Assembly (NCBI GenBank): GCA_026398785.1
Contig: JAPLSF010000044.1
Location: forward strand, 1 to 32,594
Source of the DNA: Pseudomonadota bacterium
Lineage (GTDB): Bacteria; Pseudomonadota; Gammaproteobacteria; Steroidobacterales; Steroidobacteraceae
DNA: 32,594 bases
Reading direction: 5' to 3'
In this document: piece after piece, positions 3,208 through 22,852 of the stretch
Position numbering within the stretch: the first letter of the stretch is position 1
How the letters are laid out: every line of letters begins with the position of its first letter
Translations under genes and position numbers: made by a program
The notes under the pieces: generated by a model
Seen by the model: the letters and a program-made list of their open reading frames with translations, nothing else
Told to the model about the DNA's origin: nothing
The model's database searches: none

Positions 3208-3949
3208 CCGCGCCGATCGATGCGGCCACGATCTCAAAGCGGATCTCGAGCACGCCCGCAACCTGGATGGCACCGCCAGCGACCGAGAACGGCGTGATGC
3301 CGAAATCGGTCTGGTTCAACCGCAACTCGCCGCGCGCGATCACGCCTGTCGCATCGCGCTCGACGATGACTGGAATCTCCTGCTCACGCTCGACCCCCTT
3401 CAGCGTCACGGCCACACGCACGATGGGTTGCGGCCAGACACCGGACGTCGCCGAGGATCGCAGCGTGATGGTGGGAAAATGCTCCCCGTCGAGCACCTCG
3501 GCGCGCAGCATGTTGCGGCGCGTGCCAGCCCGCGCATCGTCCGGCACCGGCGCAGCGAACTCCGGGCCCGCCGCGGCGCGCGCTGCAGGCAAGTCCACAT
3601 CGAAGCGTTCCACCGGCAGGGTCAGCTCGAAGGACGAGTCTGCCGGTGCGCTCCCGAGCCAGACTGAGCCAGCCTCGTCCGCTGAAGTGATCACGTGGTC
3701 GTGGCCCAGTTTCGCGAGCGGGCCGGCCCGGCGGACGATGACGGTGACGACGGTCCGCTCCGGGTCAACCTGAAACGTGCGCGTGCCTGCACGTGTCGCC
3801 GTCGCTGCGGCGCCTGCGGATTGCGACTGCGAGGCGTTCGCAGCAGCCGGCGGTGCCGTGGTCGAACGACAACCGGCCAGGATGCCCAACGCCGCAATCA
3901 TCACGCAACGACCGGCGGGCCCTGCGTTTTCCTGCGCGTTTGCTAACAT
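3185..3949 (-). CDS. YceI-family lipoprotein
   Basis: 254 residues from the ATG at 3949. A hydrophobic stretch ends in a lipobox-like ILAGC (Cys27), followed by an Ala/Ser/Gln-rich linker and then a YceI lipocalin-like beta-barrel (about residues 58-245). The barrel carries the family features KLGHDHV, VKG-type strand VAVTLKGVERE and LNQTDFGITPFSVAGG. YceI proteins bind isoprenoid-type lipids in the periplasm; anchoring by a lipid makes this one unusual. The start is uncertain: the N-region has a single Arg before the hydrophobic core, and a possible -10 (TAACAT, about 3942-3947) for the divergent cytochrome gene lies inside the first codons. ATG at 3901 is the alternative but would leave a very short signal. 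It overlaps the convergent VOC gene end. Confidence 0.8.
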   Translation of the reverse strand: MLANAQENAGPAGRCVMIAALGILAGCRSTTAPPAAANASQSQSAGAAATATRAGTRTFQVDPERTVVTVIVRRAGPLAKLGHDHVITSADEAGSVWLGSAPADSSFELTLPVERFDVDLPAARAAAGPEFAAPVPDDARAGTRRNMLRAEVLDGEHFPTITLRSSATSGVWPQPIVRVAVTLKGVEREQEIPVIVERDATGVIARGELRLNQTDFGITPFSVAGGAIQVAGVLEIRFEIVAASIGAVSLPRVP

Positions 3950-18876: not shown

Positions 18877-20292
18877 ATGACCGCAAACATCGCAACGATG
18901 GCCTACATCGCCGCCATCATCCTGTTCATCCTGAGCCTGGGCGGCCTCTCCAATCCCGAGTCCTCGCGGCGCGGCAACCTGTACGGCATCGTCGGCATGG
19001 CAATCGCCGTGCTCGCGACTGTGTTCGGCCCGCGCGTCACGCTCGGCGGCATCCCGTACATCGTCGGCGCACTGGTCGTGGGCGGATCGATCGGCTTGTA
19101 CGCGGCCCGGAAAGTGCAGATGACGCAGATGCCGGAGCTGGTCGCGTTGATGCACAGCCTCGTCGGCCTCGCGGCGTGCCTCGTCGGCTATGCGAGCTAC
19201 GTCGACACCTCGATCGTGCTGACCGGCGCCGAGAAGGCCATCCACGAAGTCGAGATCTACATCGGCATCCTCATCGGCGCCGTGACGTTCTCGGGTTCGG
19301 TCATCGCGTTCGGCAAGCTGAACGGCAAGATCGGCGGCAAGCCGATGCTGCTGCCGGGACGCCACTGGCTGAATCTCGCCGGCCTGCTCGGCGTGATCTT
19401 CTTCGGCGTCCAGTTCCTGAACGCGCCCGACATCAACGCGGGAATGATGCCGCTCGTCGTGATGACGGTGATTGCGCTGCTCTTCGGCATCCACATGGTG
19501 ATGGCGATCGGCGGCGCGGACATGCCAGTCGTCGTCTCCATGCTCAACAGCTACTCCGGCTGGGCCGCGGCGGCGACAGGCTTCATGCTGTCGAATGATC
19601 TGCTGATCGTGACAGGCGCACTCGTCGGTTCGTCGGGCGCGATCCTGTCGTACATCATGTGCCGCGCGATGAACCGCAACTTCATCAGCGTCATCGCTGG
19701 CGGTTTCGGCACGGGTGGTGGCTCGGCACCGGCCGCGGCGGGCTCGGGTGCGCAGCCGGCGGGTGAAGTGACTGCCATCAGTGCGGTCGAAACGGCAGAG
19801 CTGCTGCGCAATTCGAAGAGCGTGATCATCGTGCCGGGCTACGGCATGGCGGTCGCGCAGGCGCAGCACACGGTGTACGAGATCACGAAGTTCCTGCGCG
19901 AGCAAGGCGTCAACGTGCGCTTCGGCATCCATCCGGTGGCGGGCCGCATGCCAGGCCACATGAACGTGCTGCTCGCCGAGGCCAAGGTGCCTTACGACAT
20001 CGTGTTCGAGATGGACGAGTTGAACGACGACTTCCCGAGCACTGACGTCTCGATGGTCATCGGCGCCAACGACATCGTGAACCCGGCGGCTGAAGAAGAT
20101 CCCACGAGCCCCATCGCCGGCATGCCGGTGCTGCAGGTCTGGAAGGCGAAGACGTCGATCGTGATGAAGCGCTCAATGGCGTCGGGCTATGCCGGCGTCG
20201 ATAATCCGCTGTTCTACAAGGAGAACAACCGGATGCTGTTCGGCGATGCCAAGAAGATGCTCGACGAAGTGCTGGTCGCGCTGAAGAGCTGA
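18877..20292 (+). CDS. pntB: NAD(P) transhydrogenase subunit beta
   Basis: 471 residues. The N-terminal half has about eight to nine membrane helices (for example [20 protein letters not shown]). The C-terminal domain III binds NADP(H): [47 protein letters not shown] and [20 protein letters not shown] are near-invariant family blocks. It forms the proton channel and the NADP site of the inner-membrane transhydrogenase and supplies NADPH. No terminator was seen directly after the stop; the MITE-like element begins 72 bases on. Confidence 0.97.
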
Positions 20293-20364: not shown

Positions 20365-20584
20365 TTCGCCGTCGAGAGCGGTGCCTTGCTCCGGTCACCG
20401 TGTCGAACGCCGCAGCGCGAGCGCAGGTGCGAAGCGGCACCGCGGTCGTTTCGCTACTTCGCTGCCACCATCGCTTCGCGCTCGCTCGAGCAAGGATCGC
20501 CGTGAATCGTGCGGGTCCTCCGCGCGATTCACGAAGCGCGTGAGACCCCGGTGACCGGAGCAAGTCACCGCTCTCGATGGCGAA
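20365..20584. mobile_element. MITE-like element with 36-bp terminal inverted repeats
   Basis: The left end (20365-20400, beginning TTCGCCGTCGAGAGCGGTG) and the right end (20549-20584) are inverted copies with 34 of 36 matches. The interior (148 bp) has no real gene but can fold again: GTGAATCGTGCGG (20500-20512) pairs with CCGCGCGATTCAC, with one G-T wobble. Short ORFs on opposite strands encode the same SPSRAV-CSGHR motif, simply reflecting the symmetry. No clear target-site duplication is visible. It lies in the 343-base non-coding gap between pntB and the convergent DUF3106 gene; the rest of the gap shows nothing notable. Confidence 0.65.
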
Positions 20585-20635: not shown

Positions 20636-21205
20636 TCAGGTCGCGCCGCGCTCCTGCATGCGCTTGCGCATCTTCTCGCGCTGTTCCGGCGTCGCGTTCT
20701 TCCAGCGCTCCTTAGTCTTCTGCCGCTGCTCGGGCGTCATGTCCTGCCAGCGCTCGCGCAGTTGCTCACGCTGTTCGGGCGGCAATGACTGGAACTTGTG
20801 GAACCCCTCGCGCAGCCGCTGCTGGTCTTCCGGTGGCAGCTCGCGGAACTGCTGGTAACGCTGCCGCACCTTCTGGCGCTCAGCCGGCGGCAGGCTTTGC
20901 CACTGCTGGAATCGCTGCTGCGCCTGCTGCTGCTGTTCTGGCGTCATCTGCTGCCAGCGTTCGGCGCCTCGGGCGATGGCCTGCTGCCGCTCCGGCGGCA
21001 ACTGGTTCCAGCGCTCGCGATAAGGCGCGAGCACACGCTGCTGTTCCGGGGCGAGTTGTGACCAGGGTACACCGGCCGCTGGCGCTGCATCCCTGGCAGA
21101 CGCTGCGGTCGACGCATTCGCCACAGAGCTGACGACCGGCGCCAGGCACAGCAGGCACGCGGACATGAGCAGTGCCGTCATGGTTCGGGTGTTCGTAATG
21201 TTCAT
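20636..21205 (-). CDS. DUF3106-type secreted protein with eight TPEQ/PPEQ motifs
   Basis: 189 residues: a signal peptide (about 1-31, core ALLMSACLLCLAPVVSSVA) and then a highly charged, Gln/Arg-rich helical body. Eight short motifs recur: LAPEQQ (51), LPPERQ (69), MTPEQQ (87), LPPAER (105), LPPEDQ (123), LPPEQR (141), MTPEQR (156) and ATPEQR (171). Spacing is exactly 18 for the first six and then 15. The motifs recall the LTxxQ signature of the periplasmic stress chaperones Spy and CpxP, though no homology is claimed. The start overlaps the preceding gene's stop. Last gene of the ECF sigma operon. DUF3106 is assigned from memory of the family. Confidence 0.8.
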   Translation of the reverse strand: MNITNTRTMTALLMSACLLCLAPVVSSVANASTAASARDAAPAAGVPWSQLAPEQQRVLAPYRERWNQLPPERQQAIARGAERWQQMTPEQQQQAQQRFQQWQSLPPAERQKVRQRYQQFRELPPEDQQRLREGFHKFQSLPPEQREQLRERWQDMTPEQRQKTKERWKNATPEQREKMRKRMQERGAT

Positions 21206-21489
21206 GGCTTGCGCTCCGTCGTCGCGGGCGATTGCACGGCACCGCGCTTTTCGATCGTCGTCGGGGTCGGCAGCTTCGAGTCCGCACTGCTTGCAGCGGG
21301 CGCGGGCGCAACGGCAGCGGCGTTCGCCACCACCCAGTCGGCGTCGTCCGCTTCCCAGCTGCCGAGGTATTCGAGAAAATCTGCAGGCAAAGGCGGTGCG
21401 TCCGCTGCGGCCGCCACGCCGCCTGCGGCGATGGCCGCGAGCAACAGGGCCTGATTCGATTGCGCGCGACTGCGACGGCGTGTCCGCAT
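21202..21489 (-). CDS. Small secreted protein of the ECF sigma operon
   Basis: 95 residues from the ATG at 21489, one base after the stop of the upstream gene, with GGGGTGGG as ribosome binding site; an ATG at 21504 is a less likely start. An Arg-rich n-region (RTRRRSR) and the hydrophobic core ALLLAAIAAGGVAAAA indicate a signal peptide ending near residue 29. The mature part begins PPLPADFLEYLGSWEADDADW and ends in a low-complexity Ala/Pro/Thr tail. I do not recognise a named family. It is coupled to the DUF3106 gene by a 4-base overlap, so it probably works in the same envelope process. Confidence 0.75.
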   Translation of the reverse strand: MRTRRRSRAQSNQALLLAAIAAGGVAAAADAPPLPADFLEYLGSWEADDADWVVANAAAVAPAPAASSADSKLPTPTTIEKRGAVQSPATTERKP

Positions 21490-21490
21490 C

Positions 21491-21907
21491 TCAGCCCACC
21501 CCATCGTCGTAGCCAGCGGTTTCGAGCTCGACCCAGGCGTAGAATTCCAGATCCGCTTCGGCGGCGAGATCGAGATCCTCGCCCGCCACCAGCAGTTCGA
21601 GCGGGCCCGGCTGCACGTCGGCGCTCGTCGCAGTCGCAGCGACCTGCGCGGGCGCTCCCGTCTCCGTCGGCAAATTCAGCAACAACACCGCGGCCAGCAC
21701 ACCGGCAGCAAGTGCCCCGACGGGCGTCCAGACCGTCCAGCGCCAACCAGTGCGGCTGCGTCCCTCGGCCACGGCAAGTGCCTGCTGACGCGACCGGTTC
21801 AAACGCGAGAGCGTGGCTGCATCGAGTTCGTCGACGCTGGCCTGGAACACATTCCGCGCGTGCCGCTCCAGCTCGGCATCGTCACGGTCGTCGGGTTGCA
21901 GTCTCAT
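21491..21907 (-). CDS. Single-pass membrane protein, putative anti-sigma factor (DUF3619-like)
   Basis: 138 residues: a cytoplasmic helical N-terminus (about 1-57, acidic then Arg-rich, with ASVDELDAATLSRLNRSRQQ), one membrane helix (about 60-80, VGALAAGVLAAVLLLNL) and a periplasmic tail with a D/E-rich segment ending LEFYAWVELE. Gene order and topology fit an anti-sigma factor for the ECF sigma encoded just upstream, with a 4-base overlap. The sequence resembles the DUF3619 family as I recall it. There is no zinc-binding HxxxCxxC motif, so it would not be a ZAS-type anti-sigma. Confidence 0.72.
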   Translation of the reverse strand: MRLQPDDRDDAELERHARNVFQASVDELDAATLSRLNRSRQQALAVAEGRSRTGWRWTVWTPVGALAAGVLAAVLLLNLPTETGAPAQVAATATSADVQPGPLELLVAGEDLDLAAEADLEFYAWVELETAGYDDGVG

Positions 21908-22533
21908 GTCCGTACCTCGGCAAGTTCAGCGCGCAGCGCCTGCAACGCACGGAAATAGTGTGTCTTCACGGTGCCTTCGCTGCAGTCCATCGCGGCGGCC
22001 GTCGCCGCCACGTCGAGACCCTCGAGGCAGCGCAGCGAGAACGCCTCGAACTGTCGCGCCGGCAACCGGTGCAGGGCGTGGTCCAGGTGCCGCATCGCTT
22101 CGTCCGTGGCGAGCTGCTGCAAGGGCTCGGGTGCGGAATCCGGTACCTGCTCGAGCGGATCCTCGCCGACCTCGTCCTCGTGCCGCGAAGCGCCGGGCAG
22201 CCACCCGAAAAACCGCCGCCGCACCCCGTGACGCCGCTGCAGGTCCCGGATGCCGTTGTAGAGGATCCGATAGAACAGCGGCTTCCATTCCTCGACTGAT
22301 CGCGACGCATAGCTCTGCGCCAGGCGCAGCATCGCGACCTGCACGACGTCGTGCGCATCGTCGGTGTCACGGAGTGCGCACTGTGCGATCCGGAAAGCGC
22401 GTCGCTCGACCCCGGCCAGGAACCGGTCAAGCTCGCGTACCTGCGCTGCGTCCAGTCGATCCTCCCCGCGGTCGCGGGATACGTTGCGTGCCGAACGGCC
22501 GGCGCGTGCTTCGAGACTAGCAAAGCCCTGCAT
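21904..22533 (-). CDS. ECF-type RNA polymerase sigma factor
   Basis: 209 residues. Region 2 (about 35-105) includes RRAFRIAQCALRDTDDAHDVVQVAMLRLAQ and WKPLFYRILYNGIRDLQRR. Region 4 (about 145-205) holds ALHRLPARQFEAFSLRCLEGLDVAATAAAMDCSEGTVKTHYFRA. Each run is quoted only for its key stretch; the region 4 core is CSEGTVKTHYFRALQALR. The C-terminal third thus contacts the -35 element. ATG 22533 has AAGGTGA nine bases upstream. The N-terminal ~30 residues before region 2 are polar and probably disordered. First gene of a four-gene operon with overlaps of 4, -1 and 4 bases. It probably controls an envelope response together with the membrane protein downstream. Confidence 0.9.
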   Translation of the reverse strand: MQGFASLEARAGRSARNVSRDRGEDRLDAAQVRELDRFLAGVERRAFRIAQCALRDTDDAHDVVQVAMLRLAQSYASRSVEEWKPLFYRILYNGIRDLQRRHGVRRRFFGWLPGASRHEDEVGEDPLEQVPDSAPEPLQQLATDEAMRHLDHALHRLPARQFEAFSLRCLEGLDVAATAAAMDCSEGTVKTHYFRALQALRAELAEVRT

Positions 22534-22716
22534 GCCGTAGACTCACCTTCCCCGCGGTTCCAGCATCGTCTGGCAGAAACAACGCCTTGCGGAACAAACG
22601 GTTGACGTGGCGCACCGCAAAAAGATGTGCACTTCCCCGGCGTGGCTGCCGACGGACAGTCGGGCCGGGTCAACCGCTTGCGCAGCAGAGCTGCGAAGAG
22701 CTGCGTCAATCCTGCG

Positions 22717-22817: not shown

Positions 22818-22852
22818 TCATCCACAGAGTTTTCCACAGGCGCTGTGGACAA
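22818..22852. promoter_or_regulatory. Cluster of three DnaA-box-like 9-mers upstream of priA
   Basis: TCATCCACA (22818-22826), TTTTCCACA (22830-22838) and, on the other strand, TTGTCCACA (22844-22852) each differ from the DnaA box TTATCCACA by one base. The last two form an inverted repeat TCCACAG-gcg-CTGTGGA. They end 19 bases before the priA start and could be a DnaA-responsive operator. Confidence 0.5.

Follow-up and report, generated by a model that had tools for sequence, protein, structure and literature searches.

We find that the four-gene operon described here, which lies on the minus strand of a Steroidobacteraceae contig of 32,594 nucleotides (below, the window, meaning the whole stretch of DNA that was analysed), is, by sequence comparison, of the SigAb type known from Acinetobacter baumannii. 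It probably works as an autoregulated ECF sigma circuit, in which a secreted DUF3106 protein would grip the periplasmic tail of the anti-sigma factor and thereby keep the anti-sigma factor inhibiting.

Operon layout, sigma factor and promoter

An earlier sequence-only reading had described four tightly coupled genes in the order sigma factor, single-pass membrane protein, small secreted protein and DUF3106 protein, and all four open reading frames are indeed present, with overlaps between successive genes of 4, 14 and 4 bp (from sigma to DUF3106). The features considered below are:

21904-22533, minus strand: sigma gene (ECF sigma factor, 209 aa), from NF006550, sigma region 4 and identity to an A. 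baumannii sigma
21491-21907, minus strand: single-pass anti-sigma gene, 138 aa, from hydropathy, family position, AF2 helices and the 4-bp overlap with sigma
21202-21504, minus strand: small secreted protein gene, 100 aa, with a signal peptide or anchor and the acidic motif DFLEYLGSWE
20636-21205, minus strand: DUF3106 protein gene (AabB family), 189 aa, from PF11304; it has a signal peptide and a helical repeat of 18 residues
22581-22606, minus strand: operon promoter GTCAAC-N16-CGTT, 47 nt ahead of the sigma start codon
21530-21544, minus strand: anti-sigma tail motif FYAWV (residues 122-126), the proposed DUF3106 docking site, from conservation

The operon is flanked on one side by a plus-strand gene ending at 20292, which we take to be pntB-like, and on the other by a presumably priA-like gene starting near 22845. 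Scanning the own genome, we found no sigma-70 promoters or intrinsic terminators around the operon. Downstream of it, at 20365-20584, is an intergenic element of ~220 bp with 36-nt inverted repeats at its edges (94% complementary). Parts of this element match at least 12 other places in the same genome at 78-93% identity, and it looks like a dispersed repeat.

That this is an ECF sigma operon was borne out by family profile scores above cut-off and by the operon's own promoter. The sigma factor scores 215.2 bits against NF006550 (cut-off 173) and 76 bits against TIGR02937 (cut-off 42.9); its region 4 scores 54.7 bits, over the cut-off, and its region 2 scores 23.9 bits, just below the cut-off of 24. 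By these Pfam and NCBI profile scores it is of ECF type, with regions 2 and 4 only. A de novo search identified the dyad GTCAA-N17-CGTT upstream of 101/151 sigma genes, that of the window among them, with the best shuffled dyad upstream of 8, and the sole exact match to the motif within the window is the promoter at 22581-22606.

Relation to SigAb-AabA-AabB

As a tblastn search for DUF3106 in plasmids returned no match, we found the A. baumannii gene by way of the window sigma factor, which in the plasmid collection best matches an A. baumannii sigma (P0001; 39% identity over 175 aa; 236.7 bits against NF006550, cut-off 173). At this locus (L246), the gene order is sigma, a 106-aa protein and a ‘DUF3106 domain-containing protein’, the last of which (P0003) scores 38.1 bits against PF11304 (cut-off 24.3). 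The promoter ahead of the sigma gene, GTCAACCTCCCACCTCTTTTCAACGTT, carries the exact motif with a spacer of 17 and a four-T run. In the published account of sigAb-aabA-aabB, where SigAb is described as Acinetobacter-specific, promoter mutagenesis gave a -35 element of GTCAAC, a -10 element of CGTT and a 17-bp spacer that has a four-T run, with little effect of a 16-bp spacer; AabA is given as 107 aa with a transmembrane segment at 42-64, and AabB as having a signal peptide at 1-21 (PMC12153292). We matched the second and third A. baumannii proteins to AabA and AabB by such features rather than by accession, and on this footing AabB very probably belongs to the DUF3106 family; no word starting with DUF occurs in the main text of the SigAb paper (PMC12153292). 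A literature search found no paper on DUF3106, on DUF3619, or on DUF4382 with ECF.

Because gene order, sigma family, the GTCAAC/CGTT promoter and DUF3106 are common to both, we assign the window operon to the SigAb type. The two also share gene overlaps, a single-pass anti-sigma and secretion of the DUF3106 protein. Unlike the A. baumannii locus, the window carries an additional gene for a small secreted protein and an FYxWV tail motif that is missing from AabA; its DUF3106 protein is longer (189 vs 129 aa), and its promoter spacer is 16 rather than 17 bp. In a quick tree, SigAb falls among the DUF3106-linked sigmas with a support of 91, on a long branch. For the anti-sigma factors, sequence matches were few: a model built from those of the examined loci did not match AabA at E up to 10, BLAST aligned AabA with only some of 149 anti-sigmas (best 2e-7 for L198 and 2e-4 for L162), and a BLAST comparison of the window anti-sigma itself with AabA gave nothing up to E = 1. 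Its place and topology agree with those of AabA.

Distribution and co-occurrence

DUF3106 was found in 44/60 related genomes (own genome counted) and in 74/274 genomes drawn from the class. The 66 named DUF3106 loci come mostly from relatives of Rhodanobacter, Dyella, Luteimonas, Lysobacter and Stenotrophomonas, the others among the 66 being from Gammaproteobacterial, deltaproteobacterial and other MAGs. We examined 167 loci, window included, of which two pairs or more each represent a single contig (L032/L071, L034/L072). A same-strand sigma gene and a transmembrane protein lie upstream of DUF3106 in 149 of these; the rest comprise 14 without sigma, 3 with sigma and no transmembrane candidate and 1 without a DUF3106 ORF, and short contigs account for some of them. 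Of the 60 related genomes, 42 carry both DUF3106 and sigma (NF006550) and 15 carry neither, with DUF3106 alone in 2 and sigma alone in 1, i.e., 57/60 genomes are concordant (Fisher p 4e-11, phylogeny not removed). Judged from these sequences, the SigAb-type module is far wider than Acinetobacter.

Predicted target promoters

The pattern GTCAACC-N15-CGTT occurs at 175 sites in 43 sigma-positive genomes (67 for the reversed pattern) and at 24 sites in 17 sigma-negative genomes (28 reversed). We examined 108 of the 175 sites, from 23 of 30 returned loci, 4 own-genome sites and 80 regions of our own choosing, and called signal peptides by a simple hydrophobicity rule of our own. An ORF whose start looks like a signal peptide lies 15-90 nt downstream at 35/108 sites, a share that is slightly flattering, because the choice passed over one spacer that recurs six times within a coding stretch (presumably rlmN); the corresponding figures are 0/108 for the other side of the sites and 19/1852 for random positions in the fetched fragments. 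Among the 35 target proteins, Pfam identified 7 DUF4382, 4 EF-hand, 3 DUF4136, 2 MdoG, 2 glycine zipper and 1 LTXXQ protein, and two gave a match to the DUF3106 profile, at 1e-4 and 5e-4. A carboxylesterase-family lipoprotein starts 37 nt after one own-genome site (L242), and two other sites of this genome are inside ORFs. The targets reported for SigAb in A. baumannii include relA and sabS (PMC12153292).

An envelope regulon of mostly exported proteins is thus likely from these predictions. It is to be regarded as provisional, because sites in sigma-negative genomes have an exported gene downstream at 6/20, as often as the 35/108 (Fisher p = 1). Five of these six sites are in G001, G005 and G054, which are incomplete genomes (84, 80 and 92%), two of them in the own genus and one in the genus of a sigma-positive genome. 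As an after-the-fact explanation, these three may lack only the sigma contig; without them, the sigma-negative count is 14 sites vs 27 controls. Of the envelope-stress circuit proposed in the sequence-only reading, the ECF circuit is supported, and its predicted targets are rich in exported proteins; the sigma-negative genomes count against the envelope part.

Several kinds of protein were seen after the promoter motif. Secreted, DUF3106-like Arg/Glu-rich repeat proteins are encoded away from the sigma operon at L298 (G058), L302 (G045), L262 (G052) and L305 (G037), with GTCAACC/CGTT 34-78 nt before the start; these are possible paralogous targets of the circuit, judging by their sequences. 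DUF4382-like lipoproteins recur (L254, L260, L275, L287, L292, L295, L299, L331, L367), PF14321 (DUF4382) accounting for the 7/35 matches among the scanned target proteins. At L367, in a sigma-negative genome (G054:C251), two divergent promoter motifs are ~120 nt apart, one of them before such a lipoprotein. Secreted proteins of repeated GDRxxxRLDxK units, a short helical repeat, follow the motif at L284 (G038) and L312 (G040).

Anti-sigma factor and its periplasmic tail

The single-pass membrane protein noted earlier can be read as the anti-sigma factor, as supported by hydropathy, family position, AF2 helices and the 4-bp overlap with sigma. Hydropathy and AF2 give cytoplasmic helices at 7-27 and 30-50, a transmembrane segment at ~59-77 and an acidic periplasmic tail; the AF2 model is confident for the two cytoplasmic helices only, with low to moderate confidence for a tail helix at 113-131. 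No Pfam family scored over its cut-off against this protein. The part after the transmembrane segment is net negative in 144/146 distinct anti-sigmas, and 126/146 have the tail motif [FL][YF]xW[LIVAM] (FYxWL for short; shuffled tails gave a mean of 0.5 and a maximum of 3), in which W125 is invariant and Y123 nearly so across 43 aligned sequences. As controls we took zinc-finger anti-sigmas encoded elsewhere in related genomes: 0/17 usable ones have the FYxWL motif, and 13/17 are also net negative over the first 70 residues, so the acidic tail alone is not special.

In 99% of 105 distinct relatives, the mature DUF3106 protein carries a net positive charge. These opposite charges, the conserved motif and the genomes that have lost a partner are the reasons for proposing that DUF3106 grips the tail. 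In G030, no sigma was found, and the anti-sigma ORF is without its usual sigma-binding part and keeps the transmembrane segment and a DFYDWA tail beside DUF3106. In G022, sigma and anti-sigma are present, DUF3106 is missing, and the tail is without the motif. A further genome, G016 (L375), has the small protein and DUF3106 in one open frame, with no sigma or anti-sigma in the stretch. Each of the three is a single draft of ~50 contigs in which an assembly fault is possible; at face value, G030 and G022 suggest that the tail motif and DUF3106 have a linked fate. Weighing against the proposed grip are the AabA tail, which is without the strict motif, the 20/146 tails that also are, and the low to moderate AF2 confidence for the tail. 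Tail charge and DUF3106 charge covary weakly (rho -0.28, n=97, phylogeny not removed).

The cytoplasmic part is zinc-finger-like, with HxxxCxxC, in six of the middle proteins (L199, L201, L083, L102, L114, L125). Two of these (L199 and L201) retain the strict tail motif alongside it, which speaks for the proposed grip; the other four, which are among the 20 without the motif, have an acidic tail that is differently worded, and their sigmas group with other ECF sigmas in the quick tree. At L136, another ECF sigma gene is followed after 12 bases by the gene of a small membrane protein of a different kind (3445-3693), which contains RWQQMTPEQREKFRDRFG and looks like a separate sigma-linked family.

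Small secreted protein

A secreted acidic ORF lies between anti-sigma and DUF3106 in 59/149 loci, and 44 of the 59 have a loose FLEYLGSW-like motif. The gene is missing from A. baumannii L246, where the anti-sigma and DUF3106 genes overlap, and Pfam had no match for the window protein. To see whether this protein mimics the tail in general, we aligned the two locally at 18 loci, with 500 shuffles each. L114 and L102 showed clear similarity (0 and 1 shuffles reached the score) and L181 and L148 a weaker one (9 and 12); similarity was at chance level in the window (217/500 shuffles as high) and most other loci, and general mimicry was rejected. Our guess from the sequences is that the small protein might compete with the tail for DUF3106.

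DUF3106 protein and alternative roles

The last protein of the operon matches PF11304 at 125 bits (1.9e-36). The eight motif positions noted from the sequence alone are all there, at residues 51, 69, 87, 105, 123, 141, 156 and 171 (spacings 18, 18, 18, 18, 18, 15 and 15). The wording of the motif, (L/M)(T/P)PEQ, fits in a loose form at 8/8 sites and as the strict string at only 3/8 (87, 141 and 156). Chance is excluded for this repeat, since the protein has 8 copies of [LMA][TPA]P[EA][QERD] where 5000 shuffles averaged 0.04 and never exceeded 2, and since its lag-18 self-identity is 0.299 vs 0.101 +/- 0.025 (0/5000 shuffles as high). Lag-15 self-identity is 0.169, with 38/5000 shuffles as high. 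As W or F stands three residues ahead of the motif at 8/8 window sites, the unit is better described as [WF]xx[LMA]xP[EA]. Across the 105 distinct relatives, W, F or Y is found there at 400/426 motif sites and the commonest spacings are 18 (242), 36 (67) and 15 (50), so the period is, at the sequence level, a family trait.

Structure prediction, which the sequence-only reading had suggested as a check, gave a helical protein. The AF2 model (48 sequences) has a mean pLDDT of 86, averaging >90 over residues 51-180, and has helices at 71-86, 89-103, 107-121, 125-140, 143-155, 158-170 and 173-187 plus a short one at 53-58, i.e., roughly one per repeat, interrupted near the motif. Foldseek found no match to the model in the PDB, and a VIA alignment covered three chains only.

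The same reading had taken the protein for a chaperone or sensor and had called its motifs Spy/CpxP-like. One alternative, which we consider unlikely, is a Spy/CpxP-like chaperone that is a main output of the sigma factor, placed in the operon for co-expression and making no contact with the anti-sigma. It is true that the protein is periplasmic and helical with MTPEQ-like motifs, that a profile comparison with LTXXQ relatives gave a probability of 62, and that the predicted targets include DUF3106-like proteins and one LTXXQ protein. However, tests of membership used the motif, Pfam, a profile comparison and a fold search, and the first two were negative: there are 0 strict LTxxQ sites in the window protein (MTPEQ occurs at 87 and 156), and PF07813 (LTXXQ) is absent among the 18 families matching it up to E = 1 and among the matches listed for 48 DUF3106 members (25 of 35 families). 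The profile alignment spans only 41 columns. Unlike Spy/CpxP, the window protein has seven helices of ~13-16 residues in an 18-residue repeat. The linked fate of DUF3106 and the tail motif in G030 and G022 also speaks against a role without anti-sigma contact, as does the lowering of SigAb activity by AabB reported in A. baumannii (PMC12153292). The Spy/CpxP link is therefore not supported; the idea of a periplasmic regulator is kept, and ‘co-inhibitor or sensor’ fits what was found better than ‘chaperone’.

We give slightly less credence still to a CnrX-like metal sensor, whose binding of metal would release the anti-sigma. CnrYXH of Cupriavidus metallidurans resembles the window operon in having an ECF sigma, a short single-pass anti-sigma and a helical periplasmic partner, and differs in gene order and in its metal-binding partner, which is from another family. 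A related sigma (34% identical to that of the window) is encoded on a Novosphingobium plasmid (L248 2109-6060) in a CnrYXH-like set, with a hypothetical protein and a ‘periplasmic heavy metal sensor’ ahead of the sigma and copper resistance genes after it. PF13801 (Metal_resist) matches 3/48 DUF3106 members, at best 7e-6, and copper induces SigAb in A. baumannii, as the sole inducer measured for a system of the SigAb type (PMC12153292). Against this, the mature window protein has 1 His, no Cys and 4 Met, its conserved columns are without His, and the DUF3106 profile outscores Metal_resist by far. Finally, the repeat could be a low-complexity helical stretch and DUF3106 a passenger with no regulatory part, given its biased composition and weak matches to several unrelated helical Pfam families; we regard this as highly improbable in view of the conserved period and aromatic position in 105 distinct proteins, the 57/60 concordance with sigma, the high pLDDT over residues 51-180 and the measured effect of AabB (PMC12153292).

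Proposed mechanism and implications

In the favoured circuit, in which DUF3106 grips the tail, the helical N-terminal part of the anti-sigma would at rest hold the sigma factor in the cytoplasm, as judged by homology and topology. On the periplasmic side, the acidic, amphipathic FYxWL tail would be gripped by the basic, aromatic-rich helical-repeat protein, and this grip would keep the anti-sigma inhibitory. An extracytoplasmic stress (in A. baumannii, copper) would loosen the grip and lead to inactivation of the anti-sigma. The freed sigma would then transcribe from GTCAAC-N16/17-CGTT, both its own operon, restoring inhibition, and a modest predicted set of mostly exported proteins. RseB has a fold unrelated to that of the DUF3106 protein. 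RpoE-RseA-RseB of E. coli is alike in having a sigma, a single-pass anti-sigma and a periplasmic protein acting on the anti-sigma, and its promoter (GGAACTT/TCAAA) is unlike GTCAAC/CGTT (PMC12153292).

A broader reading, which we offer as possible and on balance doubtful, is that tail and DUF3106 together make a transferable lock in the periplasm, which evolution has fitted to anti-sigmas of two or more kinds (helical and zinc-finger), with the small acidic protein as a competing DUF3106 ligand in many Gammaproteobacteria, making a titration switch.

The link to AabB would make the widely spread orphan family DUF3106 a testable regulator, and a SigAb-type system described as Acinetobacter-specific is widened to many Gammaproteobacteria and some other lineages. 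The GTCAAC/CGTT promoter provides a handle for finding the system's targets, and the FYxWL tail may serve as a specific peptide for probing how signals from outside are passed on to the sigma factor.
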